The notes under the pieces were generated by a model. That model was not told the origin of the DNA. It made no database searches and saw only the letters and a program-made list of their open reading frames with translations. From Coleophoma eucalyptorum (taxonomy: Eukaryota > Ascomycota > Leotiomycetes > Helotiales > Dermateaceae), in NCBI GenBank assembly GCA_026120035.1, contig JALRME010000024.1, positions 496,001 to 560,000 on the forward strand: a DNA stretch of 64,000 nt. The letters are read 5' to 3'. Positions 472 to 60,817 of the stretch are shown piece by piece. The first letter of the stretch is position 1, and each line of letters begins with the position of its first letter. The position numbers and the translations under genes are program-made.

Positions 472-650
472 TGATGCTGATGCTGATGCTGATGAATGGT
501 GAATGGTGAATGGTAACTGTCGAATGGCGAATGGTGAATGGTGAACGGCGAATGGTGACGATGGCATTGACGATGATATGATTGATGGTGGGGGTGGTGG
601 TGGTTGTGGTGATGACGACTGATGATGGATGATGGGTGATGGAGGCTGAT
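472..650. repeat. tandem low-complexity repeats (GATGCT)n and (GAATGGT)n
   Basis: Imperfect hexamer repeats of GATGCT run into a series of heptamers GAATGGT/GAACGGC, followed by GGTGGT and GATGAT runs. No gene overlaps them. They look like a minisatellite-like tract in intergenic DNA. Confidence 0.75.
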
Positions 651-2254: not shown

Positions 2255-5200
2255 ATGGCTCCCTCACTGGCAGAGATCACTTCGAATGGACGGGCGATAG
2301 AGGGGCATACTTCCCCGAGGATAGGCAGATCACAAAGCATTTCCAGCGACAGACCGTCGATGAACGGCTATGGCTCTATGGTTTCTCCTCCCACTATTTC
2401 CCCCGAACCCGTCTACATCGCTGCATCTGCAGCATCACAAATCGTCACAAATGACCATGACAGTCGGTCAGAATCTTGGTTCGATCAACATGGCATTGAG
2501 CCCTCAGGAGAGACTGCTCTAGTTGCACCTGCCGCCTTAAAATTGGTTAATAATTTTTTGGATCAACTGCTATTCAACTTCCTGCTGGTCTCGAAATCGA
2601 CGTCTCTCGCATCCCTCCGACCCGCCGTTGGTGAAATTCTCAAACCAAGACTTGCGAAAGATGCAATTAGCGGCGCTGATCAGGAACTTCACGAATATTT
2701 AGGAGGTGGTGAGGACGAAGAGTTACTCGCTTTTCACAATGGCACCGAGCCAAGCGGCGATTGGGATCTGGAACTCGTATGGAAGAGGACACGCCTGCGC
2801 TGCATGGTGTACTCGTCGCTAGGAGATATGGAAGAGGAAGATGAGGATTATTACTCGGAACAAGATCAACTAGACAGCCATCTCGGAGCAAACGACAGAT
2901 TCTCCAATAATCCAGGCGTTGTTTCTCCTGCCGTTGCGATTTTCCTTACCTCGATACTTGAGTTCATGGGTGAACAGGCTTTGGTAATAGCTGGGCAAGC
3001 CGCGTACCATAGACTTAGGACAAAGGCAGAAAAGGAGGATAGAGATGGCTTGAACACACCAGCCGAAATAGCTGAGCGAGTCGTAGTTGATGAATCTGAT
3101 ATGGAACGAGTCGCACTCGATCGAACCCTCGGCAGGCTATGGAGAGGGTGGAAGAAGCGTTTACGGTCTCCTACTGCATCATTTTCCATGAGCCGCTCCT
3201 TCTCTCGGGAGTCTCTAAACTCAATGGTATATGCAAGCAGGTCAGCCAGTATCGCACCGAACGAACACGACATTGAGGAAGTCGAGGCTACAGTTGTCGT
3301 ATCTGAACAGGAGCAAGCGTCCATGGTACCTTTACCAATAACTGAAGATGATGTCCGGGAGATCGAAATTCCAGGTCTTGCTGCGCAGAGCGATGATGAA
3401 GAGGGGAGCTCGGAAGGCAACGTGACTCTACCTCCACGACGTCCGAAGAGCATGATGATTATCCCAAGTACAGCTCCGCAACCACTTACTCCAAGTTCCT
3501 CACAACCCCAGACTCCTCAGAGTCCTGCTTTCTTGAAGTCGTCGACAAGGAAACGTTCAAACTCTTTACCCTCTCCAGCTGCTACGCCATACTCATCACC
3601 AGTAAAGCACTCCAAAGCAACAGTGAAGAATGTTGAGACTCAAATCTACGACTCTGCGAGTGGGGATATTTCCAAAGGTCTAGTTAACGGCGTCATTGCT
3701 AGTACTGCCACTGTGGGAGCTGGAGCCGTTGCATCCGTCAACGCAGCCGCAAACAGCAAAGCCCGGCGGGAAACTTCAACCGAAAAGGATGAAAGCGATG
3801 AGGTTGAGTTAAACGAAGTTCCTCGGATCATGACTTCCTCGCGTATCTCCATTGGGGGAAGAATTTCTCCAGATGATATCAAAGATGCTTCAAGACGATC
3901 CAGCCTTCGATCTGCCAGTCTTCATTCTTTGCGGGTGATTGACGTTTCGTCACCACGAAGTCCTATTTCTAGGCAAAGTTCTGGCGAGGGAATCGAATAT
4001 GTAGCTTCTGGTCGAGCTGTCTCCTTATCCAGACCAGCTAGCCTTCATTCCCCAGTCGTAGTGGAGGCTTCGTCTCCTCGGAATGTTAGCCCCTTGCGAG
4101 CTCAATCGTCTAGTCCTGTCATTCGACAAGGTTCTTCATTTAGCTCCCGACAAGGTACCCTCTCTGAGGATGCTATTTCAGAAGCAGACGAGCAAGATGA
4201 AATAGCTTCTTCCAATACAGGTGCAACTCGAACCGATCTGGCACCAGCCGTCCAAGGACTTGACCAGCACCCAGTCTCCTCTCAAGGCCACGGTCCAGAG
4301 ACCTTGGGCAAGACTCCAAAGCCTACATCTTTTGTACTCGGCTCTGCTCCTCCACCTCGAAGTGCAGCTCGTGAACTTACAAAAGTTGTCATCAATAGAG
4401 CCACACAGCCAGACACCATTCCAGAGTCTACATCCAGTGATCTTGCGACGCCGAAGAGTGGCGTGCCTTCTCGGACCCCCTTGCATGAGATGAGGAAAGA
4501 TGCGCCTGATACGTCAGACGAGGCTTCTTCCATAGCGCCTAGCCATGATACGCACAGTACGTCTGATCGGTCTGTGAAGAATCAATCATCACGAACCACT
4601 GAACAGGAATCTGCTCGAGGTACAAACCGTGGCTCTCCACAGAATGCTGCAAAGGCGTCTCGACACCGACCAGCGCACCAATCTGGTTCCTCGTCATCCT
4701 CAATATCACACAAACTAAAACCAGTTCGAACCTCTGAAGATGCGGCGAGAGGGGAAGTCAGAGGAGGCCAAAGCTTCGATGAACTGATCCGTAGCGATCA
4801 GACCATACAGTATACTCTTACGCCTCAGAGCATGCGTAATATCGAGGTATTTCAGAATCGCAACCAAGAATTGATCAAAACTAATCCATTTTTCCAGCGT
4901 GCTGATTCTCCTAACAATACTACTGCTCCTCGACCTAGTGGCTCAGATCCTAGGCCAGGTACAGGCCGTACTCACTCGGGGTCTATTACCAAGCTCACGG
5001 GCTTGCATTCGAACCCACCAGACGATAGTATCAGACTTGGGCAGGGCACCAAAAATCCTGGGCCTTCCAAGCTTCGCCCAAACACACCTAAAGCTAGAGA
5101 TGCTCGCGTGGATAGAGATTCTATCGGGGACTTCGCCGAGTTCATTCGGTCAACAGGGCCACCTGGGGCTTACGACGAGAAGCCACCTCGTACTGCTCCA

Positions 5201-6322
5201 GCGACTAACGGCCATCGTGGTCGACAAGCCAGTAGTTCAGCGCCCCGAGTCACTCCTCCAGCATCTCTTCCGCGACGTGCAGAGTCTTCTGCTGGTCGTA
5301 ACAGGTTACAGGCTCGTGCAGCTGTTGTGCCACATGGTGATACGAGCTCCGAGTTGATTGACTTCATCAGGCAGGGTCCACCTTCAACCAACGGAGGTGA
5401 TCACAGAATTCCTCGCACAGTTGCACCTTTCCGCAACACAATGGATTCTGACCAGATGTCTGGTGCTGTTGGTGGCAAGGCAATTGATGCCGCGTTACCT
5501 GGTCCCAGGAACAGTCAGACATCGACTAACTTATCCAATGACCCCTCAATGCAGTCGAACACCTCTTCTGTTACATCTCAGAGCCCGCTGGTTACTGCAA
5601 GCAAAGCTGTCGGTCCATCAGCGAATAAGAGGAATGACTTTGACGACGAGGATATGATGCCAAAGAGGAAGACTAGGAGAGTCAAAGATCCTTATGCCAT
5701 CGACTTTAGTGATGAGGAAGATGAGCTAGAGGTAGCCGTCTCCAGGAAACCTAAGCCAATCAAAGAGGAGAGCCTAGCGGATTTCCTTCGCAACGTCCCT
5801 CCCCCTCCAGAAAACGATCCACCTGCTCTTGCTCCCTTGACTCAAAGGGAAATAAAAAAGAAGGCAAGTGCTCCCAGCCTGATGTCACGATTTGGTCGTG
5901 GCCCAACACCTGCTCTACCTCCCAAGCCACAATCATCAAAAGGTTACGAGTCTCGCTCTACTTCTCGGGGCAGTAATTCAACACAAAAGGCGGCAACCGC
6001 CACTCCTGTCACCAAGACTTCTAACAGCAGCTCACCTATGTACACGTCTGCTCGTGGGAGCGATAATTATCTGTCAAAGGTAGACAGTGTTCGCAATCCT
6101 TCTGGGGGTTCTGGAAAAGTTCTACAGAGGACTTATACAGCAAGAGAGGCAGCTACATACACGGGTACTCGAACCAACGATCTCGCCGATTTCCTTCGAT
6201 CAGACCCTCCTCCCGGCATGACGGGACCAACAGCTCTCCAAACCAGACAGACGTCGCACCACAAGGAAGAGTCCAGCGGATTCTCGAGAATGTTCGGTCG
6301 CCGACGCAAGGTTGCTACCTGA
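2255..6322 (+). CDS. large protein with fused H2B-like and H2A-like histone folds and a disordered tail
   Basis: Single exon, 1355 residues. The frame stays open upstream to 2201, but that codon is TTG; the first ATG is 2255. Residues 91-149 align by eye with the H2B histone fold from helix 2 to helix C: the segment around LRPAVGEILKPRLAKDAISG parallels the H2B IQTAV...LPGELAKHAVSEG block. Residues 222-297 align with H2A: IFLTSILEFMGEQALVIAG parallels the H2A VYLAAVLEYLTAEILELAG helix 2, and VVVDESDMERVALDRTLGRL parallels [20 protein letters not shown]. An acidic segment (about 190-210) lies between them. The remaining roughly 1050 residues are Ser/Pro-rich and look disordered, with a basic patch KRKTRR and at least four repeats of the form (D/E)F(I/L)R..PP at residues about 959, 1033, 1173 and 1309. 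The cellular role is unknown; a nuclear, histone-dimer-like role is inference. Confidence 0.85.
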   Translation: MAPSLAEITSNGRAIEGHTSPRIGRSQSISSDRPSMNGYGSMVSPPTISPEPVYIAASAASQIVTNDHDSRSESWFDQHGIEPSGETALVAPAALKLVNNFLDQLLFNFLLVSKSTSLASLRPAVGEILKPRLAKDAISGADQELHEYLGGGEDEELLAFHNGTEPSGDWDLELVWKRTRLRCMVYSSLGDMEEEDEDYYSEQDQLDSHLGANDRFSNNPGVVSPAVAIFLTSILEFMGEQALVIAGQAAYHRLRTKAEKEDRDGLNTPAEIAERVVVDESDMERVALDRTLGRLWRGWKKRLRSPTASFSMSRSFSRESLNSMVYASRSASIAPNEHDIEEVEATVVVSEQEQASMVPLPITEDDVREIEIPGLAAQSDDEEGSSEGNVTLPPRRPKSMMIIPSTAPQPLTPSSSQPQTPQSPAFLKSSTRKRSNSLPSPAATPYSSPVKHSKATVKNVETQIYDSASGDISKGLVNGVIASTATVGAGAVASVNAAANSKARRETSTEKDESDEVELNEVPRIMTSSRISIGGRISPDDIKDASRRSSLRSASLHSLRVIDVSSPRSPISRQSSGEGIEYVASGRAVSLSRPASLHSPVVVEASSPRNVSPLRAQSSSPVIRQGSSFSSRQGTLSEDAISEADEQDEIASSNTGATRTDLAPAVQGLDQHPVSSQGHGPETLGKTPKPTSFVLGSAPPPRSAARELTKVVINRATQPDTIPESTSSDLATPKSGVPSRTPLHEMRKDAPDTSDEASSIAPSHDTHSTSDRSVKNQSSRTTEQESARGTNRGSPQNAAKASRHRPAHQSGSSSSSISHKLKPVRTSEDAARGEVRGGQSFDELIRSDQTIQYTLTPQSMRNIEVFQNRNQELIKTNPFFQRADSPNNTTAPRPSGSDPRPGTGRTHSGSITKLTGLHSNPPDDSIRLGQGTKNPGPSKLRPNTPKARDARVDRDSIGDFAEFIRSTGPPGAYDEKPPRTAPATNGHRGRQASSSAPRVTPPASLPRRAESSAGRNRLQARAAVVPHGDTSSELIDFIRQGPPSTNGGDHRIPRTVAPFRNTMDSDQMSGAVGGKAIDAALPGPRNSQTSTNLSNDPSMQSNTSSVTSQSPLVTASKAVGPSANKRNDFDDEDMMPKRKTRRVKDPYAIDFSDEEDELEVAVSRKPKPIKEESLADFLRNVPPPPENDPPALAPLTQREIKKKASAPSLMSRFGRGPTPALPPKPQSSKGYESRSTSRGSNSTQKAATATPVTKTSNSSSPMYTSARGSDNYLSKVDSVRNPSGGSGKVLQRTYTAREAATYTGTRTNDLADFLRSDPPPGMTGPTALQTRQTSHHKEESSGFSRMFGRRRKVAT

Positions 6323-14863: not shown

Positions 14864-17032
14864 TCAACTAATGAGCTGCTTTACATCTCCAACTACGGCT
14901 CTAGCCATCTTCTTAAGGAAGACTTTCTCGTCTGCTTCGCGATACTTCTCCCAACTATCCAATCCGTCTTTGGCCTGGATACTCAAAGTCTCGTAGCCCT
15001 GCTTAATGACTCCTTGCACTTGAGCGTTTGTCAGGTGCTTGCCTTTCCTTCCTGAAGCTCCATCCGTTAGTAGCTCATTGTAGTGTGTGCTCACATTAAT
15101 GAGTGTTCCAATGGAGTTTGTTGACCGTTTACCCAGATCAAAATTGTCTCTGAATTTGACTAGGATTTCGCCAGTTTCAACAAGTTTGTAAAATAGATCA
15201 TCGTACGCAGCTGGATTCGGCAGGAAAGCTTCGCCAGCTGAGAGCGACAAGGCAATGAGATTCACAGTATTGTCAAGCAAGATGTCGATGTGAGTTAAAT
15301 TCTTAAGATCCGCAGTATATGTCGTAAGGAACCTGACTAGGGAAAGGAGTGATCGGAAGACTTCTGACCAGTGATAGTTGAGTCTGGTACGTGATCGTGA
15401 GAGGTGAGAGATGACCCGGAGGATGATACCCACACAAAGGATATAAAGATCCACGTCCAGGCGCCGCTTTAAGTTGTGGTTGATACCATCAATCATAATG
15501 TCTAGGATGCAAACGGCCAAAACTCGATCTCCACGAACCAGAGGCAGATAGGGTTGTCTCTGCCGACATAAACGCACGGGCATCTTGCTTTCTTCGCTAC
15601 ATATCCTTTTACACAAGATTTGGTCTTCGACGAAGAGTCTGATGGTAAGGAGGTTTAGATGCGAGTAGAGAGTTGTTCGTTGGGATGAGTATGCGTGTTG
15701 GAGTAGATATGATGTGAATGAGAGGTAGCTGCTAATGGGTGCCTCAAGGCCCTTTTCAGCGGGTAGGGAGACGAAGTTGAAGCAGAACAGCTTGTTTGCA
15801 TGGGCGAAATCATAAGTTGCCAGAAGAACCGCAGCTTCACTCCCAGGTCTGTTTATATTATCAGCATTGTCAGAGCCAAGAAGGGACATGACTAACAATT
15901 TTGCAAACAACTCTTTTGCCAGCTCTGGGTCGATTGCTGGTGTTGTAGGTCGCGCTCCTCCAGCCACGATTCCACCTAATCCAAACATATTTAGGGTGCT
16001 ACTAATAGACCAGCCTTCTGGAAGATCATCCTGAATTTCCACATATTTCTCACGAGAAGTGGCGCTAGTGGATCCAACCGATCGTATTATCTTCTGAATG
16101 ATTCCTTCATTCACAAAGTCGTCAAGTCTCAAACGGTATGGGTTTTGGGATTCGAATTTATTGTAATTCGCTAGTAGCCCAAGCAGGGTAAATGGTTCGA
16201 ATGCACGAGAGCAGGTATCTGAATCTTGAATATACTTTTTGTGTCAGCTCAAAATATTTAAAGATTCAGTGCTCACTTACTTTCATGAGAGAAGGGAAAA
16301 GATCTCTATGCGTAAAGTAGGAAAGAAGGCTAGTCTGATATGCCCCAGAAGTAACAGACAATGTCGCTTGGATAGCTTTTTGTCGTATATCCACTGTCTA
16401 AGTCAGCACTGATTCCTTGCAAAGCCTGAATTCGCATACAGTTTCTGCCACTTCTTATAGTCGTATCTAGTGCTGCAACAAATTCGGTAAATATCGCATC
16501 CACTTGGTCCAACCCCGCGAGTACAGATATTATATCAGAACTTGGATTTGTATATTTCTTCGGAAGTACAGCAGCAAGAAATGCTGTCACGGTCTATACA
16601 ATTCAGCCTTGTTTCGCATTTGGACTGCTCTGATTCTTACATCGAGCGCATTGCCATCCGCCGGAGCACTTCCTGCTTTGATACATCCTACTGCTCTTGT
16701 GAACAATTCTCGCGTTTGCTCCTAGCAATCTGTTAGATATGCGCCTGCATGCATGATTTCTTGCGCACCTGCAGCTGCAAAAGATCGTCTGGGCTTAGAT
16801 CGTTCAGTAGTTGCTGTAACGTGGCTTTGTCGGGCTTCAAGAGGAAGAACTCCCGCCAGTAGCCTTCAGACAGTTCTAGTTCTTCTTCATCCTGTACGAA
16901 AAGAGGTCAGTGACTGCGAAGTGCCTCGGAGGAAGAAGCGCATTATACCTTGAACAAAACATCGTAAAGCTCCACAATCTTCTGTTGGAACTTCTCTGGT
17001 CGCGCCTGCTGAGTAAGGGGAGATGGTTCCAT
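14864..17032 (-). CDS. ARMH3/C10orf76-like armadillo-helical protein (DUF1741)
   Basis: complement(14864..16234, 16281..16393, 16440..16593, 16641..16721, 16769..16891, 16949..17032); phases close and give 641 residues. The whole protein is alpha-helical with Leu-rich helices, ending in the DUF1741 region (blocks such as PYRLRLDDFVNEG, GLGGIVAGG and LDVDLYILCVGIILRVI). The human relative ARMH3 binds PI4KB and works at the Golgi; whether the fungal protein does so is inference. The start is the first ATG of exon 1, MEPSPLTQQARPEKFQQKIV, which matches the family N-terminus. The acceptor of exon 6 is AAAAAG, slightly unusual, but chosen because it keeps the MKYIQDSDT reading. Introns are 45-57 nt. 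The gene is head-to-head with ISA1. Confidence 0.85.
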
Positions 17033-17638: not shown

Positions 17639-18435
17639 ATGTCCACAACACGCATCATGGGGCCGTTGACATCATCGTCAAGCATCATTTGCAGATTTGC
17701 CTCCTCACAAACAACATCTGCACCCCGACCGTGTCTACATGCCCTACGCCAATTCTCATCCTCACACTTCTCACAGGCCTCGGCGAAGCGTAAGATGCAG
17801 ACCAGCACTGCCTATCAGCCATATTCCTTCGATCAGCCACCTCCTCTATCAAGAAATTCTGGTATTCCAGATAGCTCAATGGCGAGCGGCATCCCACAAG
17901 TGAACGAAACGAGACCGTTGAATATGGCTGGACAATATGAGACTGGAGCAGGGCGGCCAGCCGAGCAGAAGTCGAGTAGTGGTGTTACAGAGCAGGAAGC
18001 GCAGAAATCAACAGCCCCACAAACACGACCAAAGCCTGCACGAAAGCTTCGAGCACGAAAGGCAGCGATGAGCCTAACCCCTGGTGCTGTCAATCAACTG
18101 AAACAGCTGTTGAGCCAACCTGACCCAAAATTGATCAAGGTAGGAGTTCGGAACCGTGGTTGCAGTGGGCTTGCATACCACTTGGAATTTGTGGAGAAGC
18201 CGGGCGCGTTTGATGAGGAAGTAGTGCAAGATGGCGTGAAAGTTTTGATAGACAGCAAGGCACTGTTCAGCATTATTGGCAGCGAGATGGACTGGGTGGA
18301 AGACAAGCTCAATCAAAGATTTGTGTTCAGAAACCCTAACATAAGTAAGTCCCTCCGTGGTTACCGGGAAGGAAGATTGGCTAACAGTTTCGTGCAGAGG
18401 AGCAGTGCGGATGCGGCGAGTCATTCATGGTTTGA
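17639..18435 (+). CDS. ISA1: mitochondrial iron-sulfur assembly protein Isa1 (A-type, HesB/IscA family)
   Basis: join(17639..18344, 18398..18435), 247 residues. The A-type Fe-S domain begins near residue 150. It has the three invariant cysteines: Cys175 in RNRGCSGLAYHL, and Cys239 and Cys241 in EQCGCGESFMV at the C-terminus, the last two encoded by the small second exon. The first 140 residues are Ser/Arg-rich, start MSTTRIMGPLTSSSSIICRF, and fit a mitochondrial presequence plus a linker. The protein helps mature [4Fe-4S] proteins such as aconitase and lipoate synthase in mitochondria. Without the 53-nt intron the frame runs on to a false end at 18481 and loses the CGC motif, so splicing is required. 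The 3' end faces the Dabb gene on the other strand. Confidence 0.93.
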
Positions 18436-18609
18436 ATGGTGTAATTTTGTGTCCAATCTTGGAGGTGTTCTACAAGCATAAGTACAGCATTGTATAGGAA
18501 CTGGCGTTGGATACCTTTTGGCGTTATAGGGATGGGATCAGCAAGGAGCTGAATAGATTCACTGCATTTGTAGATAGCAGAACTACAAGAACTTCATATA
18601 TTGTATTCA

Positions 18610-24756: not shown

Positions 24757-25959
24757 TCATTTCTTCCCTCTTGAAAACATTCCACCTATCCGTTGCAGCT
24801 TGGTAGGTGGTGCGGCGGCGGCATCACTGTCCGACTCTCCTTGTGAATCCATATCTTCGTGGTCCACTTCATCCTCGTCACCACTGTCCGCATCTGTCTC
24901 CTCTGCCTCGTCGTCGATCAAATCACCGTCTTCACTCTCCTCATCATCTTCAGAATCCGCAATGGCACCATTTACCATGGGCATATCCTCTGAATCTTCG
25001 CTTCCCGAAAAGTCGTCAAGTTCGCCATTTCGGGCCATTCGTTCCAGTGCGCTATTCATCGCGCTCTCTTCATCCTCATCCTCCTGACCTTCAACATATA
25101 TAACATCCTCCTCATCCTCCTCCTCATCAAAGCCTTGTTGACCCTTCTGCATGCTTCGTCTGAGTTCAATTTGAGCCTCGAGCATATCCAGCTTTCCCTT
25201 CAGAGAAAGGAGGTTGTTGATACTCCTTGATCGGTCATCCAAGACTTTATTTAGCTGAGAAAGCTTCTTGACGAGGTTTGGCTGCGTTGCAAGATATCCA
25301 CCGTGGGTGACTAAGGTCCATTGCACCCACACCATCAGACTTCCTGATCTCCCAGGCCGTCGGTGTATCCTTTCCGCAAGTTTCTGTAGGAGAGTGCCGG
25401 CGAGGGGAGAGTCGAGGCGCTGGATGGTTGAACGGATAGTTTTGGTGTCGCTGGTCTGGAGGCATGATTCGAGGAGGGAGACGTCGTTTGTCTTCAATGC
25501 TTGACTGAGCACCGTGCCCAAAGATGCGCCAGTTGGAGCTTGTAATCGTGCGCCCTGGGGATACGATAAGGCGCCGGTTGAGGGGTCGTCAAATGCGCCC
25601 GCAACATCAATTGGTTCTGCAGCATTTGCGCGGACAAGATCCCCAAAGGATGGTTCGGCTGCTCCCTCGGTGTCTTCGCCTTCCCCAGCCTCTTCAGCGT
25701 CACCCATGGCCACATCCTCCTCTCCTGCATCTTCTGGCTCGCTGCCGACCACCTCTTCGTCGGAATGGTCAGAGTCGTTGCTGCTCGAATCGCTGGAGAT
25801 ATCGACCACCTCTCCGTCCTTAAATCCGTTGGTGCCAACCGCGTGACCAGTTGTTGCCACTGTCCTTGACTCATCGACAAATGCCTTTCCCACGGCCTTC
25901 GCACTGGGCTTGACCATAGGCTGGCCCAGCTTAGTGGAGACTTTCCGTTTCGTCGACAT
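24757..25959 (-). CDS. UTP5: Utp12-domain small-subunit processome protein, Utp5/WDR43 type
   Basis: Single exon, 400 residues, ATG at 25959. The Utp12 domain lies at about residues 145-270 (LGTVLSQALKTNDVSLLESC through MVWVQWTLVTHGGYLATQPN to LLSLKGKLDMLEAQI) and resembles the C-terminal domain of WDR43/Utp5. It is flanked by long Asp/Glu/Ser runs and ends in a basic tail KLQRIGGMFSRGKK. Utp5 is part of the t-UTP/UtpA subcomplex, which binds pre-rRNA early in 18S maturation in the nucleolus. The WD40 propeller of yeast and human relatives is absent from this frame and I find none upstream. This may be the usual short form in these fungi or a distinct Utp12-domain paralogue. Confidence 0.75.
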   Translation of the reverse strand: MSTKRKVSTKLGQPMVKPSAKAVGKAFVDESRTVATTGHAVGTNGFKDGEVVDISSDSSSNDSDHSDEEVVGSEPEDAGEEDVAMGDAEEAGEGEDTEGAAEPSFGDLVRANAAEPIDVAGAFDDPSTGALSYPQGARLQAPTGASLGTVLSQALKTNDVSLLESCLQTSDTKTIRSTIQRLDSPLAGTLLQKLAERIHRRPGRSGSLMVWVQWTLVTHGGYLATQPNLVKKLSQLNKVLDDRSRSINNLLSLKGKLDMLEAQIELRRSMQKGQQGFDEEEDEEDVIYVEGQEDEDEESAMNSALERMARNGELDDFSGSEDSEDMPMVNGAIADSEDDEESEDGDLIDDEAEETDADSGDEDEVDHEDMDSQGESDSDAAAAPPTKLQRIGGMFSRGKK

Positions 25960-27265: not shown

Positions 27266-30035
27266 ATGGCCGTGATGACTTCAGAACATTCTGAAGGGGT
27301 CACATTTGAGCAAAAGACGCAGCCCGTTCCATCATCTGAGAAGATGGCTTTGGATTTAGATATCAACGGGTGAGTCTACCTCGAATTCTCCTTGTTTTCT
27401 TTCCATACCTCGCTATCGTGTACATGTGTATTTATCAATCTATTCTTGCAGAACTTCCCATCGAGATGAGACCAACCATGAACCTGCGCCTGATGCTTCG
27501 CTGAATGACAAGTCTGCGACATCATCTTCGAATGAATTGACTGCTAGCACGGTTGAGGTCAATGGATCGTCGAACAACGACGCATTCAAGTCAAACAACA
27601 CTGTCGCGTCTTCCATCGACCCACCATCTGAAGAGTTCGCGCCTGCTGTAGACCTTAGCTTTTCAGATCATCCAGATCTGCCAGAGACCACTGTTGCGCA
27701 ACCAGAACCTTCCACTTCAAGCGACGCACAACCTTTAGCTTCAGATCTTGCTTCAGCTCCTGTAGATTCAGCCATCGACGCGGTGGTTGAAGATCACCTT
27801 GGCGCATCATCTGTCTTACCAGTCATTGAATCAAAAGAATCTGATCTAAGAGACCAGGCTCTTCCGCGACCCGATCCTATGGATGATACGAAAGCCAAAG
27901 CTACCACAAACTCTGAACCAAACCCGGCCTCGCGCTCTAAAGACGAACTAGAAATTGACGCGACGATGGCGACGACTAGTATTTCCAACGAACCACCTTC
28001 GGCCTCTCTCAATGATACGGATATGGCAGACGCGCCAACGGTCTCTCAAACATCAAAGATCTCCCGCGAACGTGAAGATGATGATGATGAAGCTGAGCCC
28101 CTTGCTAAACGTACGAAGACGGAAGAGAGAGCGCCAAAAAGCTCTCTTGCAGCACAAGTTATCCAGAAGAGCGAAGTCAACGGCGACGATGATTTCAAGG
28201 ATATTCCTATTACACCATATCAAACCAAGGAGATAACTAAGGTTGTGAAGATGGTTGTTCGAAGCACCAATGGTAAGAACTTTCGACTACCTGTCGCACA
28301 ATTATGGCCAAACTTTGCCGAAGAATACAAGATGCGAATCCCGAATGAGATAGATCTGGCAACTATCGAGCAACGGGTTCGATCTCGTCAGTACACTGGC
28401 TGGGCAGCTTTTCGGGCTGATGTCAATTTACTAGCGAACAATGCTCTCACATTTAATGGCCCGGATCACTCTATCACTATTGCCGCAGACGAAGTCCGAC
28501 AGACTCTCTTGAGTAGGACTGCGAACATTCCACCTGAAAGTGTCCAAGCTCCAAAGCCTTCTAAGAAAGCTGTACCCAAGCATCCTACTCCAACAGCCGA
28601 GGCTACACCTAGAAATATGCCTACTGCTCGACGTGGCTCAAAACCCAGTGCACTTTCAAGTGCACCACAGGGAGAGACGTTTGCCTTAGATCCCTCTGGT
28701 GTTCCTCTTATTCGGCGCGGATCTACCAAGCTTGATGGCGGGCGACCAAAGCGGGAGATCCACCCACCTAAGAATAAGGATTTACCATACAATTCAACGC
28801 GACCGAAGAGCAAGAAGAACGCAACAGAACTCAAGTTCTGTGACCATGTTCTTACCGAACTTAAGAAGCAAAAATATTGGCCGTTTACTGGACCATTTTT
28901 ACAGCCAGTTGACCCTGTTGCTCTCGGAGTCCCTAATTACTTTAGCATCATCAAGACTCCGATGGACTTACAGACAATCACCGATCGTTTGAATCAAGGC
29001 CAGTATCAGAAGTCGAAAGACTTCGAGAGTGACGTTAGATTGATTTTTGCGAACTGTTACAAATTCAACCCAGCCGGTAATCCTGTGCATGATATGGGAA
29101 AGCAAACTGAAGATCTTTTCAACAGCTTGTGGGACAAGAAACAACAGTGGATCATTGACCATGCTCCAGCTGCCCAAAGCCCATCGAGTGACATGGAGAG
29201 TGATGAAGAAGAAAGTGAAGAGGAGGCTGAAAATGAGCCAGCTGCGGCTGCAAGTACCTCCGGACTTTCTGCCCGACTCATTGATGAGCAGCAAAAGCTC
29301 ATTTCTATGATGACCCAGAAGAATGCTGACAAGGCATCCATTGAGGTTCAACAAACAATTTGTGAGATGCTACAGAGAAAGGTCAATGAGGAAGCTGCGG
29401 CTTCATCAGCCAAGAAATCCAGCAAGAAAGCTAAGCCTACTACGACCAAGCCATCCAAGAAGAGCAGCACCGTTGTCAAGAAAGAAAAGGCCGGTACTAC
29501 GGCAAGCAAGAAGTCTGGTTCTCGCGCCAAGTACATGGGTACCGTTGAAAAGGAGATTGTATCTGCTGGAATTGGGCTACTTCCCGAATCCACTCAAGAC
29601 AGAGTACTTCAGATCATCCAAGGCGATGCCCCAGACGCTAAGGCCGATGACGATGGATCCTTGGAGCTTGATATTGAGAGTCTAACCGAAGCCTCCTTGT
29701 GGGAGATCTACGGCATGATTGAGAAGCATCTCCCTGGCACTGTCAAGACTATTCGGGATCAGAAAGATGCTGAGAGAATCAAGGCTCGGGGTCCAACCCA
29801 ACCAAAGCAAAAGAAGAAGAACAAGCCTATGAGCAAGAACGAGCAAGAGAGAAAGATCGAGCATCTCAAGAACGCTGTGCAAGAGCTTGAACGACATGGT
29901 TCTGGTTCTCAAGAGCCTGTCATGCCCAGTAAGTCAGAAGCCGTGCATGTCGCGCCTAGTATTAACGGCATTTTAGCGGTTGAACAACAAGATGAATCGA
30001 GCGGTGACGAGAGTTCCGATTCTGAAGAGGAATAG
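27266..30035 (+). CDS. BDF1: BET-family double bromodomain protein Bdf1
   Basis: join(27266..27369, 27452..30035), 895 residues. Order: disordered Ser/Asp-rich N-terminus, bromodomain 1 (about 297-388), bromodomain 2 (about 495-601), acidic linker, Lys-rich segment, ET domain (about 728-799) and an acidic Ser tail. Bromodomain 2 is canonical: YWPFTGPFLQPVDPVALGVP, YFSIIKTPMDLQTI, and NCYKFNPAGNPVHDMG with the acetyl-lysine-binding Asn. Bromodomain 1 is divergent: the WPF and IPDY motifs are missing, though ALTFNGPDH keeps an Asn. BET proteins read acetylated histone H4 and recruit TFIID. The first exon supplies MAVMTSEHSEG; the join GG|A ACT is in phase. Confidence 0.93.
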
Positions 30036-37131: not shown

Positions 37132-40100
37132 TCAGATGGAGATGAAGAAGCTCTTCTCACCCTCCTGAGGCTTCACCAGAGCTCGCTTGATGATAGGGTC
37201 TGCACAAGATATCCGGATCCTCTCTGGTGTTGCAGGACTTTCCAGTCTCAGCAGCCCGTCATCTTTGGAGTCTGTTCCCAATGAAGCTTCTACTCCGTAT
37301 TGCTTCCTTGCTGCTTTCAATGCATCACGAATCGCAAAGAACACGACACTTCCCATGAAGAGTGGTGGCTCACCAACTCCTCTACTGCGCTGAATTGTGC
37401 GCAGATTTTCCCAGGTGACGCCCTTCAATAAGGAGACGTTGAATTCCTGAGGAATGTCGCGGAATCCAGGAATCTTGTATGCCCCAGGACCTCGTGTTGC
37501 AAGCTGCCCCTTCATAGGACCACCACGAAACCATAGACTCTCTTCAGTCGTGAAAAGGCCCATTCCTTGAACAAATGCGCCTTCGACCTGTCCATAGTCA
37601 ATGGAAGGGTTGATGGATCGGCCCACATCCATTTTCACATCTGCTCGGAGGCAAGTCCAGTCTCCAGTCAAAGTGTCTATCTCGACTTCTGCAGCAGCAA
37701 CTCCTTGGGTGAAATAGAAGAACATCTTGCCGGTATTGGGTCCCCAGGTATACCCAATCTCCGGGGTCTTATAAAAGCCATTTGCTGACAGATTTACTCG
37801 GTCAAAGTAAGCAGCACTTGCTAATTTGCTCATCGGAGCATCTTCGCCAAATTTCTCTCGATAAGGTGCCAGCCTTTCATTAATTTGGGCACAGGCGTTA
37901 AAAATAGCGTATCCGTTCAAGTCAGACGACGCAGAAGCGGCAGTAGAAGACGTGTTTGCAACCGTGTTCGTGGCTGTTTCGGAAATAAATACGCTGTCAA
38001 GTGGTACCTTGAGAGCCTCTGCAGCTATCATGGTCATTTTGGTGTGGAGTCCTTGACCCATTTCGGTACCTCCATGAGCAACAAGAACAGATCCATCATG
38101 GTAGATATGCACCAGGGCTCCGGCTTGATTTAGGAACAACGCTGTGAATGAGATACCAAACTTGGTTGGGATCAAGGCAAGACCTCGCTTCTTCCACTTA
38201 TGAGAGGCATTGAATTTGGTCACTTCCTCTCGTCGTTCGGCATAATTCATCTCATCCTGTACTTGCTGGTACATAAGTGGCACATGCCAGTCTTGCAGCG
38301 CCTGGTTGAAATGGGTTTGTTCTTCGGATTTGTAGAAGTTGATCTCGCGAAGTTTCTCGGCGGGTATATTTAAACGATCGGCAATCTCTTCCATATACTG
38401 TTCTGCGACGAAAATACCCTGTGGCCCACCAAATCCACGGAAAGCAGTATTCGAGACAGTATTTGTTCTGCAACACCTTCCGCGAACATGGACATTTGGA
38501 ATGAGATAGCATCCATCGATGTGAGACAAAGCTCTGTCAAGCACTGCGGCGCTGAGGTCTTGTGTCCAACCTGCGTTGTTGAAGACTTCTGCATCTAGCG
38601 CTTGGAGTTTGCCGTCTTTGTTGACACCAACCTTCCAGCGAGTTAAGAATGGATGTCGTTGACCGGATGTTAACATATCCTCATCTCGGTTCAGCATGCA
38701 GCGGACGGGCCGGCCAGTTTTCTTAGCAGCAAGAGCGCAGATACCGGTCAATTGGATGGACCGAGTCTCTTTGCCTCCGAAGCCTCCGCCTAGGCGCTTG
38801 ACCCTGGATACAACCTTATTGGCAGCGACATTGCATACTTGGGCAACGTAGGTTTGACTAATTGCTTGTCAGCTTTCCAACAGAATTGCTAAGTTGCTAG
38901 CAAGAATTGTGGACACAAGACTTATTGAGATCAAATGATTAAGACATATTGACTAGAACGAAATGGTGACTTACGTTTCTGTCGGATTCTGGGTCCCGGC
39001 AAAGATCTCCATTTCTCCGTCTTCTGGCTTTGGGACAGCCACACAAGCATTGGTCTCCAAGTAGAAATGCTCCTGGCCACCCATCCGAGTGACACCGGTG
39101 AAAATATGGTCACAGTTCTTGAAGGCTTCGTCAACATCGCCTTTCTTGATATACCTGTAGTGCTGAAGGAAACTCTCCTGCTCAATCGCCTCCTCAATGG
39201 TGAATATTGCAGGAAGTTCCTCATAAACGATTCGAACTGCTCTTGCTCCGGCTTCTGCATGAGCTGCACTGTCTGCCAATATCATTCCGATTGGTTGACC
39301 AGCAGTGAAGACCTCATCGACTGCCAAAAATACTTCGTCACAGACTGGAGCTCCCCACCAATTGGCCTGTGGAGACGGCATGTCAGTGTGGTCAACCCAA
39401 TTGACTACTCCAGGTAAGTCCATTGCTGGAGAATAATCAACCTCTATAAGCTTGGCGTGAGCTTTGGTTGAAAGTACAAGATGACCATACAGCTCATTTT
39501 TCTGCACAGGAATATCATCGGTATACTGCGCTTCTCCAGTGCTCTGTTTGAGGGCTGCAACATGGGGATTGGCTTTGCCAAGAATCTTTTGTTCATAAGC
39601 GACGGACGCCTCACGATCCTCCTTTCCATGCGAGATTATTCGCTCGATCTCAGGAACTGCTTCAGCGTCAACCTCCGATGTTTTGACACCAGCAAGCTTG
39701 GTGAGAACTTCATGATAGAAACGATAGAAGAATCCAAGAGCGAGTGACTTTCTATATGTGGCCATTCCACCTGGTACACCAAATCGAAGATCAAAATCCT
39801 GTTCCAGAGCGTTCATGGTCCCTTCCAACGTAGTAGGATCTGTGAAATCCTTGCCAATGAGATATGCCCCTGCTTTCTTAGCAGCCACCGTTGTTGGTGC
39901 CATGCCTCCATAGACAAGGTCAACACTATCAACCACATTTGACTCGCTTAAAGATACACGGAGTGCTGCATTGACAATGGCAATATCGTCGTCTTTCCTT
40001 TTTGATTGTTTGTATGCCTGGAAATGCTCGCCTTTTTCTTTCGTTACAGGGATTCGAATACTTGCGATGATAGCATTGGCCGGTAAAGCCGTTGTTCTAT

Positions 40101-41614
40101 AGCCCTTGAAAAACTGGGACATTGGTATCTCTGTCTCTTCATCCAATGACTTGGCCACTAAAATTGCATTTGATGCAACGAAGACGGGATTTAAATCAGA
40201 AATTGGTGATGCTGTAGCTAGGTTCCCTGCAGGTGTGCCAACATTCCTAATCTGACGTCCTGCAAAGTATCTCAACTGTTTGAGAATGGCAGCGAAGACT
40301 TGACCTCGGACTGGTCCATAGTGTTTGATTGCTTCTTTGGCGATTGATTCCAGGTCTGTAAGGATGACATTACCACCAATCTCGAGATGGTCGTCCTTGA
40401 AGGAATACTGCCGTAGCTCGGCAATATCACCTACAAAGACGGATGCTGTATATTGCATGGCTTTGAACTTGATCTCAATCTGGGTTTCGGTGCTACCTCC
40501 GATGATCTTGGCTGAGGGATAAACGCTCTTGATCTCAAGTAGTTGCTGCATAGTGACCGGTCGATACCATCGCTTTCTCTTGTTTCCAAAGGCTAACGCT
40601 TTAAACTCATGTTTCCGCAGTAGTGGTGGGAAAATAAGTTCGGTGTCTGGGTGGTATTCGATGAAGCCAGGAGGAGTAAATCGTTTAATCGGCTGGTCAT
40701 CTTTGAGTCCTTTGTCTTTGCAGCATCCACCGCCACTAGCACTGGCATTCCCATTCTCCATGCAACATCCTCCCCCACCGTTTGATCTAGCTTTGCCGCA
40801 AGCACTTTCTGCGCTGAAGGTATGAGCAGCGTCAAGAATTGGGCGATATCCTGTGCATCGGCAGAGGTTGCCATCAAATGCTTCCTCAATGTCATGTTCG
40901 GATGGGCTCAAATCATTCCGTAAAAGTGCGTACAATGACATGACTATGCCCGGGGTACAAAATCCACACCTAAACAAATTGTTAGAGGTAATTTATTAAA
41001 GGTGTTGGTGCAGTAAGGAGAGAAGTGGATTGGGGCTGCGCTTGAAAGATCTTTGTAGACAATCTCCCCCAGCAAATTATCCAAACGAACTAAGACCAGT
41101 AACCCAATTACCAAGTTTGTGACAGTAAATATGGTTGCAACAAACATCCAAGATACTTCAGATCTAGTGCCGGATCGATGCAAGCAACTGAAGGAATATG
41201 TTCGACTTACTGTGATCCGTTGAATTTTGCTATCCGTTCTTGTGCAGGATGAGGTCTTTTAACATTGCCAATTCCCTCCACTGTGATAACATGCTTTCCA
41301 TCCACGCTCACTAATGGTGCCAAGCAAGCATTAACACTGGCATGATATATCTTCTTTGTAGTTGGGTTGTATTGTGAGACAACAACTGTACAAGCTCCAC
41401 AGCCTCCCTCAGCACAACCCAACTTGGTCCCAGTAAGCCCAATTCCACGAAGGTATTCGAGAAGAGTGATCTCTGGATCAATATTATCGATCTGGACCTT
41501 CGTTCCATTGAGGTAGAATCGGAGGGTATCGTCGTACTCAGTAGTTACACTCGACAAGGCCTGACTGGCAGTCTGCGAGACAGCAGGTTCTGGAGAAACA
41601 GCAATCGGTGCCAT
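37132..41614 (-). CDS. XDH: xanthine dehydrogenase (molybdenum hydroxylase)
   Basis: complement(37132..38857, 38975..40969, 41211..41614), 1374 residues. Oxidises hypoxanthine and xanthine to urate in purine catabolism, in the cytosol or peroxisome. Domains in order: plant-type [2Fe-2S] with [12 protein letters not shown]; second [2Fe-2S] with CGFCTPG and [11 protein letters not shown]; a Cys/Gly-rich linker [10 protein letters not shown]...GGGCCKDKG; an FAD domain with [10 protein letters not shown] and [15 protein letters not shown]; then the molybdopterin domain with [33 protein letters not shown] and the catalytic Glu in RGVGEPPLF. Length and order match the fungal enzyme (hxA of Aspergillus nidulans). 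Introns of 240 and 117 nt close in phase. GATA-type and inverted-repeat sites lie just upstream. Confidence 0.96.
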
Positions 41615-57019: not shown

Positions 57020-60000
57020 CTATCTTCTTCCACGTCCTCTTCCACGTGGTGATTTCATAACTCTTCCACCACCTCCATGACCACCTTGATCGTGTCTTTT
57101 CCCCTCTCCTAGACCTCTTCTACCATTAGCCACACCACCTCTGCCTCTTCCACCGCGGAAACCACCTCGCATGTCTCCACCAATCTGCTTCTTCACAACT
57201 TTAATCTCTTCCTCATCAACATCCATTTCCTCATCGTCGTCCTTAGATCTCTTGTTGGAGAACTTTAGTCGACCACCTCTTCCTCTTTGAACGGCATCTC
57301 GTCCCTTGATGGCGCTCACATAGGCATCAACGCCACCCTCGTCCTTCTCGGCAGGAGTGTCAATGACCATCTGGTCATCACCATCACTATCACCACCCAG
57401 CAACAGCTTTCCATCTAGATCCATCTTGACCTTAGACTTCTTGATCTCACGCTGCTTGATTGGCTTGGTAGAGGAGATGTTGGCAAGAGCACGTCGATCC
57501 AAGAGATCCAATGGTTCTGCTTCATCTTCCACAATGTATGTTTTCCCGCCCTTTTTGGAACCCTTCTTGCTCTTTCCAAGTACCTCATTATCTGATACGT
57601 CTGTACCATCAGAGTCATCATCGCTGCCGTGAAGTGCCTCGTCATACTCGCTCTCAAAGCGACCCTTGCGTTTCCCTCTGGCACCCTCTTCATCATCACT
57701 ACCTTCTGCACCTTCAGCTTTGGAAGCTTCCTTCTGTCGCTTGGCACGTTCTTTTGTCTTGCGAATGTTTGCAATGAGCTTCTTGTCATCTTCAGGGCAG
57801 TATTTGTTGACAACATCAACACCAAATCTTCTGATCATACGTTCCAAGATGTGCTTAACCTTTGCCTTGAAATGAGCAGTATGCTCGTGACTCCAGACCA
57901 TCAAATTTGGAATCAAAGATTCAAGTCGTGGTAACATGAGCGTGGTTGAAAGACTGATAACACAGACTTTGACGAAACCCAAAACACTTCTTACGATTTC
58001 ACGGTTGTTGGAGGTAAGGAAGAGATCCATAGTTTGAACCAGATCCGTGAGGGTTTCAGAGCTGAGAGACTCTCTGAAGTGGTAAAGAATTCGAGTCAAA
58101 GCTGTGATAGAGGCAGAGACCATGTGGGGGGTGCTTCCAGCCAAACCTGCGCTAACCATGGTGAAATACTCCTCAAGATTCGCCTTGACTGCAGGAGCAT
58201 CGTCGGGCATATGCGAGACTTTGCTGTTCTCGATAGTGGAACCAGATGCAGCAACAATCTTCTCTCCCATCAAGATTAGAAGATCAAACGCAGCAGTTCT
58301 AGCTCTTTCATTGACTTCTTTGCAGGAAATCACGACTTCGGATAAGACAGCTGGGATAAAATGGAGAGAGTCGTTGGGAAGGAACGGAATCAACGTGGAG
58401 ATAGCAGTGAGACGATCCCTCTTTGCCGGCGCAGAGACCTTTTCTGCGCTGTTCAACACGAGCTGCTGGAGCTCGCCACTGCGTTCTTGTAGAGCCACCT
58501 TACCGGCCTCTGATGCAGCCAGTCTAGGGATTAACTTGTAAGCCTTCTTCTGCAGCTGTGGGTCATCATCCTTGATGATGATCAGGGAGGAAATGTTGAA
58601 GAGAGTGCTGAAACTTTCTCGCGGTAGATAGATGGAGATTGTAATAACCAAATCCATAAGTGTGTGGCTCATAGGGGGCATCTTGTCAGATGCATTCTGT
58701 TGCTTCTGCTTCTGCTTTTCTGCCTGGGTTTGAGCTCCAGTCTCTGCAAGTGATGACTCTAGCATTGTAGTAGCAGTCTGGAAAGTTTCCATCAGGTCCT
58801 TTGATGCTGCAATACTGAGGTAGGCGTTGATGCAGTTTAGAATATAGCCACGATATTGTGGCAATGTTTGGCTGTAGACGTTGAATAAGATGGAAAGCAT
58901 GTTGCTGGCGAACCCTGATAGATGATCCAGGTTCTTTTGAGCAACCTCTTTCGAAACCCTGCTTTGTAGCACTAAATCATCCTCACCATCAAGGCTGGCA
59001 ATGGCTTTATTTGACTCCACAAGAGTCTGAAGTGATTTGCATATATCTGGTCGCAAGTTAACTTGTTGATACAACAAATTTGAAACCAATTCAGCAAATC
59101 CTTGGTCGAAAGACTCGGTAAGGTCAAGTGGCAAATCGCAGTATCCAGGTAGCAAAGCCCAGATTTGCTGGACAAGAGTCTCGAAGATCTTGATCTCCAT
59201 TGTTTTCTCTGCCTCACCATTATCAACGACTCTTTGGAACATGACTTCGCTCAAAGGAACAAATTCGCTCTTGAAATGCGCTAGGTTTGTGTTGCTAACA
59301 TAGTCACGGAGTACAGGAAGCATCCACGCCCGACCAGGTTGACCTTTCTGAGGCTTCGCAAGATTGAGAGGGAGAATCTTCAAAACACTCTCCGGGCCCA
59401 TAGCTCGGACAGCCTTTCCGATAATCTCATCGGCTTCCTTGTTACCGGCAAAAGAGCCATTGCTTCGAAGTTCGCCGATCGTTCTGAGGGCATCGGTCAT
59501 AATAGGATCTGCCTGCCATCGCAAATTGTCGAACATAGCACCAATCACGTTGAATGTCTCCATCCATGCGGCCTGGTACTTGACACTCAGAAGGTCCACA
59601 GCTGCCTTGGCCAGCTTTTCCAAGACCTTCTCATCATATATCGATGGTTCTAACAGTACTGAATCTGGCACACAGTTGGCCATAAATGAAATTAGACACT
59701 CTGAAGCGGAGACTCGAATATTGTGCGATGACGACGCTAAGAACGAAGAAATAAGATTGAAGAGCTCCGGAAGCTTTTGGAAGGTGTCCTCCGGCTCCAA
59801 TTGTGCGGATACGTCGTAGCCTCTTGACAAGACCGCTATCCATGGTGGGAGGAGCTGGGAATCGTTTTGAGATGGTCGTAGTTCGGAGATCACCTCCAAG
59901 AGTCGCGGCAGTTTTGCAGAAGACATTTCATCCTCCGCCATACCCTCGAAAATGAGCTCAAAAACTTCAAAAGCGGCCATGGTCATATATTCGTTACTTG

Positions 60001-60817
60001 ATCTCGAGATATTTAGGAGGATCTCGCAAAGTGCCTCGATCTTCTTGCTCGGCCAACCCCCAGATGCTGCAGCTACCGTCTTGACTAGTTGTAAAGCGTG
60101 GATGAGCGCAGGGTCGTGTTCCGCAGAGTTTCCCTTTCTCTGCTTCTTCGCTTGGCTGGACTGGGCTGCAAGGTCGCTCAAACTCTTCATGGCAGTCTCT
60201 GCACACATATCTGCTGCTGGATGATCGGAAGAAGGACTTGGCGGAGGGTTCTTCAAAACTTTGGTAATTGCTTCTTGAGCCCTCTTTCTGATCTTGGGTC
60301 TGTGGTCAACAGCCAAGTTTAAAAGTCCTGCAATGGCCCGTCGAGGACCAATTTGTGTCGCAGATAGCTCCCATGCTGCTGAGTCCTGCGCTACCAATAG
60401 TGATTCCAAACATCCAATTGAAGGTCTGAGAAGAGGCGCGTCCGCCTCTGGCAAAGTCAATGCTGGAGCCAGGTTCGTGAGAATTTGTGAGAATTTCGAC
60501 CGCAGCAATGGTGCGGGGGCATATGGGGTAACAACATCGAGGAGATATACGACCGATGTAGCCAAATCCTTATTGACTACACCAGTGCTTGAAACGGCTT
60601 GTCGGAGTAAGGCGAGCAGTGCAGCGAAATAGCCCGTTGGTGTTGGCTCAGTCTTTTGTTCCCGAAGGGTATCTTCAACAGCGGACAATACCACACCATT
60701 CTAGACGAGGGTCAACGCAAGAAGCAGCACTGGACTGAATGTAATAATTACCTGCTGCTGGCCCTGCAGCTTCGGCGAGCGGATCTTGTCGAGCTTTTCT
60801 ACCAGAGTCGTGGACAT
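57020..60817 (-). CDS. RRP12: ribosome biogenesis/export protein Rrp12
   Basis: complement(57020..60700, 60752..60817), 1248 residues. Long array of HEAT-type helices, including the NUC173 region (around residues 330-520). The tail is charged and low in complexity: Asp/Glu runs, a Lys-rich segment, and an RGG box (GGDMRGGFRGGRGRGG and repeats to the end). Rrp12 binds pre-ribosomes and Ran and is needed for export of both subunits and late 18S maturation. The first exon gives MSTTLVEKLDKIRSPKLQGQ, joined in phase to NGVVLSAVEDTLREQ over a 51-nt intron. Head-to-head with the thioredoxin-like gene. Confidence 0.94.

Follow-up and report, generated by a model that had tools for sequence, protein, structure and literature searches.

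A predicted H2B-H2A histone pair at the head of a long, conserved protein of Coleophoma eucalyptorum and other Pezizomycotina

A window of 64,000 nucleotides from the Coleophoma eucalyptorum genome (contig JALRME010000024.1, positions 496,001 to 560,000) was analysed, with a focus on the gene at positions 2255-6322 of this window. The N-terminal domain of its protein (amino acids (aa) 57-304) very probably folds as an intramolecular H2B-H2A pseudo-dimer, as judged from an AlphaFold2 model. By sequence, the order is H2B-like and then H2A-like, and both folds are predicted to pack head to tail against each other. The histone folds had been noticed in a preliminary description made from the DNA letters, and this observation was confirmed. 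The proposed pseudo-dimer was backed by profile matches, half-by-half comparison, the AlphaFold2 model and structure matches. All features are found in Table 1.

Evidence for two histone folds in one chain

The structure of aa 30-400 was modelled by AlphaFold2, with 64 sequences as input. The predicted local distance difference test score (pLDDT) was 71-98 per ten-residue block between aa 40 and 309, with a single exception of 56 at aa 210-219. Structure matches of the predicted model covered the whole fold pair, which points to the assembly of both folds into a pseudo-dimer. Among the matches listed, Sos1 (1q9c/3ksy) was at the top, tied with H2B-H2A chimeras, and the closest solved folds included H2B-H2A.Z chains bound to chaperones. 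Identity to histone structures was 15-22% over the structural alignments. Model and fold search, both named as checks in the preliminary description, thus gave two packed histone folds and matches to histone pairs.

Sequence comparisons pointed to the same histones. With the single sequence, phmmer found one PDB match, the H2B-H2A fusion 7dlx (E 0.96), with both halves aligned in the right order. The top three PDB matches of a 39-sequence profile were single-chain H2B-H2A constructs (E 1e-4), and the best 60 of 190 matches were all H2A or H2B-H2A. The H2A part contributed ~20 bits to these matches and the H2B part 4-5 bits. A 64-sequence alignment gave weaker matches (best E 0.0033), and all 34 of those up to E 1 were H2A or H2B-H2A.

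For a comparison by segment, also named in the preliminary description, the domain was cut into halves, each of which was set against ten histone-fold proteins of the C. eucalyptorum genome, labelled from their sequences. The front half was best matched by H2B, weakly (59 columns, 24% hhalign probability), and the back half by H2A.Z (63%), followed by H2A (41%). H3, H4, NF-YC, Dpb3-like, NC2-like, TAF6-like and one further protein each remained below 5%. Among 1000 shuffles, one reached the front-half H2B score and none the back-half H2A or H2A.Z score; the score of H2B against the whole-domain profile was reached in 21 of 1000. The H3 and NF-YC matches were no better than their own shuffles, and the Dpb3-like protein was somewhat above them, its back-half score being reached in 20 of 1000. 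Both sequence and prediction therefore indicate two histone folds in one polypeptide, with the H2B half being weak by sequence. In the same genome, the genes for H2A and H2B lie ~1 kb apart on opposite strands (contig G000:C5, L005 and L011), and that for H2A.Z lies on a separate contig (G000:C101:1127868, L015).

Pfam models did not recognize the domain. The window locus was not among the 15 PF00125 matches in the C. eucalyptorum genome at E up to 0.1, and the window protein had no Pfam family above the cut-off. The histone domain alone gave at most a sub-threshold match to DUF4605 (E 0.14-0.18). Searches with 39 domain members matched 15 families (best E 0.053), none of them a histone model, and those with seven other family members gave one sub-threshold match, to DUF6732.

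Table 1 Features of the histone-fold gene and its protein. Positions are those of the window.
Feature	Positions	Strand	Details
Whole coding sequence	2255..6322	+	1355 aa; uninterrupted frame, no intron needed; starts at first in-frame ATG
Double histone fold domain (predicted)	2423..3166	+	aa 57-304; AlphaFold2, fold matches
H2B-like fold with C helix	2423..2701	+	aa 57-149; helices aa 57-79, 92-113, 118-128, 131-148; AlphaFold2 secondary structure
[KR]-S-T loop 2 of H2B-like fold	2594..2602	+	aa 114-116
Linker between folds	2702..2767	+	aa 150-171; between predicted C helix and next conserved helix; short predicted helix aa 154-161
Likely helix 1, H2A-like fold	2768..2815	+	aa 172-187; assigned from order and position
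Acidic insertion, likely loop 1 of H2A-like fold	2816..2917	+	aa 188-221; GD.EE[ED]DE block aa 190-197
Helix 2, H2A-like fold	2927..3046	+	aa 225-264; strongest H2A match
Helix 3 and basic Trp-containing C helix, H2A-like fold	3092..3166	+	aa 280-288 and aa 293-304
Tail island EIEIPG	3344..3382	+	aa 364-376; 17 sequences
Motif copy 1	4772..4843	+	aa 840-863; FDELIRSDQTIQYTLTP
Motif copy 2	5123..5161	+	aa 957-969; DFAEFIRSTGP
Motif copy 3	5342..5386	+	aa 1030-1044; ELIDFIRQGPP
Tail island	5396..5455	+	aa 1048-1067; RIPRTVAPFRNTMDSD
Basic-then-acidic tail island	5654..5722	+	aa 1134-1156; RKTRRVKDPYAIDFSDEED (RKTRRVKDPYAIDFSDEE)
Motif copy 4	5750..5812	+	aa 1166-1186; ESLADFLRNVPPPP
Motif copy 5	6164..6214	+	aa 1304-1320; DLADFLRSDPPP
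Basic-aromatic C-terminus, conserved	6278..6319	+	aa 1342-1355; FSRMFGRRRK

Domain anatomy, charge and known histone pairs

In the H2B-like fold, the segment that begins with helix 2 and ends at loop 2 was 22 residues long in all rows with letters at both ends (63 of 64). To align this helix, H2B requires an 8-residue gap, and Sos1 one single-residue gap. In loop 2, K or R was found in 38, S in 34 and T in 36 of the 38 rows with a residue there; the corresponding loop of H2B touches DNA.

The stretch aa 172-197 was among the most conserved of the domain, with W176, R180, M184, Y186, L189, G190 and E193 invariant in 39 rows. In the H2A-like fold, it likely comprises helix 1 and, in loop 1, an acidic insertion. 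The acidic block was nearly fixed (E193 in 39, E194 in 37, D196 in 38 and E197 in 37 of 39 rows), and the insertion measured 22-39 residues over 64 rows. The acidic linker that the preliminary description had placed between the folds therefore lies most likely inside the H2A-like fold. In the C helix of this fold, W296 and W299 were present in 36 and R297 in 35 of the 36 rows with a residue there.

The DNA-contact and acidic-patch positions of histones were aligned to the domain by eye. On this alignment, the domain had not retained the basic residues that H2A has in loops 1 and 2. One of the eight acidic-patch positions was kept family-wide, H2A E56, as E236 (39 of 39 rows). A second acidic-patch residue, D289, was seen in the window protein, and 27 of 37 rows had N there. 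The position of H2B E105 was reversed in charge, to R or K, in 38 of 39 rows.

The median charge of the whole domain was -16.9 (62 of 64 rows, two being too short), and that of the core, with linker and insertion removed, was -0.9 (range -9.2 to +6.9). For comparison, the organism's own H2B-H2A folds had +11, Sos1 20-177 +1.3 and Sos1 1-184 -4.0. A strongly basic DNA-wrapping surface thus appears absent, as judged by net charge. The preliminary description had suggested that the DNA-contacting Arg and Lys were replaced. This holds for the basic surface and most contact residues, but not for the [KR]ST loop of the H2B-like fold, which was kept.

By prediction and alignment, the domain is an N-terminal H2B-H2A type histone domain as in Sos. 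In both, a large multi-part protein begins with an N-terminal H2B-like and then an H2A-like fold on a single chain; helix 2 of the first fold is ~8 residues shorter than that of H2B, and the core is near neutral. Unlike Sos1, the fungal domain has a long acidic insertion and is followed by a conserved motif tail, and the identity over the structural alignment was ~15%. The DH, PH and Ras-exchange domains of Sos were not found by Pfam in the window protein or in seven other members, five of them of at least 1200 aa. Each half gave 10-11% hhalign probability against the single Sos1 sequence, so shared ancestry was not shown by profile; the shared short helix 2 is a better hint of it. Literature passages describe the Sos histone pair as an H2A-H2B-like case, with no mention of fungi there (PMC1866393), as lacking DNA-binding electrostatics and serving autoinhibition and protein contacts (PMC13088155), and as linked to the COP9 signalosome as a partner (PMC6328564).

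Several other double histone folds (DHFs) have been described. Single-domain relatives of ABTB2 (Cca3), named Cca3S, have contiguous H2B- and H2A-like folds, as described in PMC13088155. By description, the animal ABTB2 is alike in carrying a DHF within a larger protein, but it has ankyrin repeats and a BTB domain, neither of which was found by Pfam in the window protein or the seven other members. The SAGA subunit Spt3 has two histone folds in one chain, also in fungi, and its histone fold is TFIID-18-like. No such Pfam match was found in the window protein or the domain members, and the structural score was lower. The DHF review has Spt3 as the sole fungal entry of its Table 1, and it describes the H2B-H2A doublets of giant viruses as packaging DNA and the HSIH-DHF proteins of animals as histone pairs on a single chain, in some cases with H2B first and H2A second, with at least 60% identity to histones (PMC13088155). 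The fungal domain, in contrast to the doublets of Marseille-, Melbourne- and pithoviruses, has lost the basic composition. It shares the single-chain pair with the HSIH-DHF proteins, but its 15-22% identity is far from their threshold for nucleosomal histones.

The preliminary description knew of no cellular fungal system of this kind. This must be amended for Spt3, a listed DHF of a different kind. No fungal H2B-H2A chain was in Table 1 of PMC13088155, and no paper on such a domain was among the matches listed in the open-licence literature, a search outside which most subscription papers fall.

Family, tail and surrounding genes

A domain search of the C. eucalyptorum genome led to a single place, the window locus. 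The closest protein among the matches listed was P0001 of C. crateriformis (1341 aa), 96% identical over aa 60-320. A protein search yielded 1500 relatives at E up to 0.001 (the best 120 listed), and a second one, in which the 7996 candidates sharing most words were scored, yielded 1617 (the best 120 listed). A separate search gave 55 short relatives. Leotiomycetes, Sordariomycetes, Lecanoromycetes, Orbiliomycetes and Eurotiomycetes were named as sources among the matches listed; class placement was checked for one species per class and is presumed for the remaining species. The occurrence in Orbiliomycetes suggests that the ancestor of Pezizomycotina had a protein with an H2B-H2A head.

Family members are ~1,150-1,470 aa long and labelled hypothetical, uncharacterized or Flo11. 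The last label is doubtful, because no Pfam domain was found in the window protein or the seven other members above the cut-off. No papers were found for six orthologue locus tags, and neither the main text of a screen on septal pores nor that of a study on the Spitzenkorper contained the word histone.

The tail of ~1,050 aa (residues 312-1355) is basic, with an isoelectric point (pI) of 9.65. It was compared in eight Leotiomycetes (window protein included) and nine Penicillium/Aspergillus sequences, chosen from 34 and 105 long sequences. It was poorly conserved (mean majority fraction 0.45, vs 0.71 for the domain), except for seven islands which, by sequence, are common to Leotiomycetes and Eurotiales, and hence to two classes. 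The motif xL.DFLR..PP was found in five copies (aa 840, 959, 1033, 1173 and 1309). Using an expression written after the motif had been seen, 200 shuffles of the protein had a mean of 0.02 copies and a maximum of one. With a slightly wider expression, the 34 long proteins among the matches listed in the first search had five (2 proteins), four (13), three (6), two (12) or one copy (1), and the 105 of the second search four (3), three (28), two (53), one (19) or none (2). Copy 2 was missing in two of nine Eurotiales rows, both Aspergillus, and altered in several. The islands at 5396-5455 and 5654-5722 (+) were strongly conserved across the two classes and do not resemble the repeated motif.

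Upstream of the gene, short tandem repeats (GATGCT, GAATGGT, GGTGGT-like) were seen by eye at 474-610 (+). Ordinary housekeeping neighbours encode an ARMH3 C-terminal domain protein (14864-16132, -), an Fe-S biosynthesis protein (17639-18481, +), Utp12 (24757-25959, -) and RRP12 (57020-60694, -). A Bdf1-like chromatin reader with two bromodomains and a BET domain (27426-30035, +) lies ~21 kb from the histone-fold gene, probably by chance. Two adjacent ORFs at 37132-40977 (-) jointly have Fer2_2, FAD-binding, CO_deh_flav_C, hammerhead and molybdopterin domains; they represent a xanthine-dehydrogenase-type enzyme in two frames, perhaps due to an intron.

Possible roles and significance

We lean slightly towards reading the protein as an interaction head, a Sos-like H2B-H2A pseudo-dimer, on a long scaffold with a repeated tail motif; that its role is outside chromatin has about an even chance. 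The reading of the head as a docking module is based on the Sos analogy, the near-neutral core and the conserved acidic and basic Trp elements. The pseudo-dimer would neither wrap DNA nor join nucleosomes, and a partner, or the protein's own tail, could bind to a surface made up of the conserved acidic block and the basic Trp helix. Each tail motif may form a short amphipathic helix docking on one common receptor, and the chain would thereby gather several receptor copies. By analogy, the head would be a protein- or membrane-docking module and the tail motifs repeated docking helices.

A chromatin protein, contacting DNA or nucleosomes through the [KR]ST loop and the basic C helix and recruiting regulators with its basic tail, seems unlikely. 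The loop and R180 are strongly conserved, the tail has its high pI and, around aa 1137, the basic cluster KRKTRR, and many DHFs expose basic surfaces, according to PMC13088155. However, the median charges of core (~-1) and whole domain (~-17), the lack of the basic residues that H2A carries in its loops 1 and 2 and the mostly lost acidic patch, the latter two as aligned by eye, speak against it.

We give rather low odds to self-masking, in which the tail motifs or the basic C-terminus stay covered by the histone pair and are set free by a signal, a Sos-style autoinhibition of a scaffold. In Sos, the histone domain stabilizes the autoinhibited state and has phosphatidic acid as a ligand (PMC6328564), and the opposite charges of the acidic domain and the basic tail could draw the two together. 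Against this, pLDDT was 62-69 at aa 350-369, and no clear sign of the EIEIPG island docking on the domain was found in the model of aa 30-400, which ends before the motif tail.

The preliminary description had also considered a mimic of the H2A-H2B dimer, here taken as binding the chaperones or remodellers Nap1, Chz1, FACT or Swr1, and nothing was found in its support beyond the chaperone-held H2B-H2A.Z chains among the closest solved folds. These match by fold, not by interface; with one of eight acidic-patch positions kept in the family (two in the window protein), the E105 place reversed and the basic surface gone, a mimic is improbable. That the helices resemble histones by chance, and that the predictor drew the fold from what it had memorized, would fit the weak single-sequence match and the lack of a Pfam family, but is strongly disfavoured and very improbable, since the profile matches, the half-specific matches and the shuffles are independent of the predictor.

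The interaction head on a scaffold could also bear on the origin of such domains. Tentatively, and with less confidence than the scaffold itself, the fungal head and the animal Sos histone domain may come from one ancient non-chromatin H2B-H2A fusion with a shortened helix 2. In fungi, it may have come to anchor an assembly platform with five motifs, a so far unrecognized cell-organizing protein of multicellular hyphae. For cellular DHFs of the Sos, ABTB2 and HSIH kinds, Table 1 of PMC13088155 has animals only, plus one protist for Sos. From a fungal family that is conserved and lacks the charge of histones, it would follow that histone pairs were recruited as interaction modules repeatedly, or far earlier than thought. 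The family would offer a tractable knock-out system, in Aspergillus or Neurospora, for the function of the domain without attached Ras exchange domains, and it would give a structural name to a protein so far labelled hypothetical, uncharacterized or, doubtfully, Flo11.
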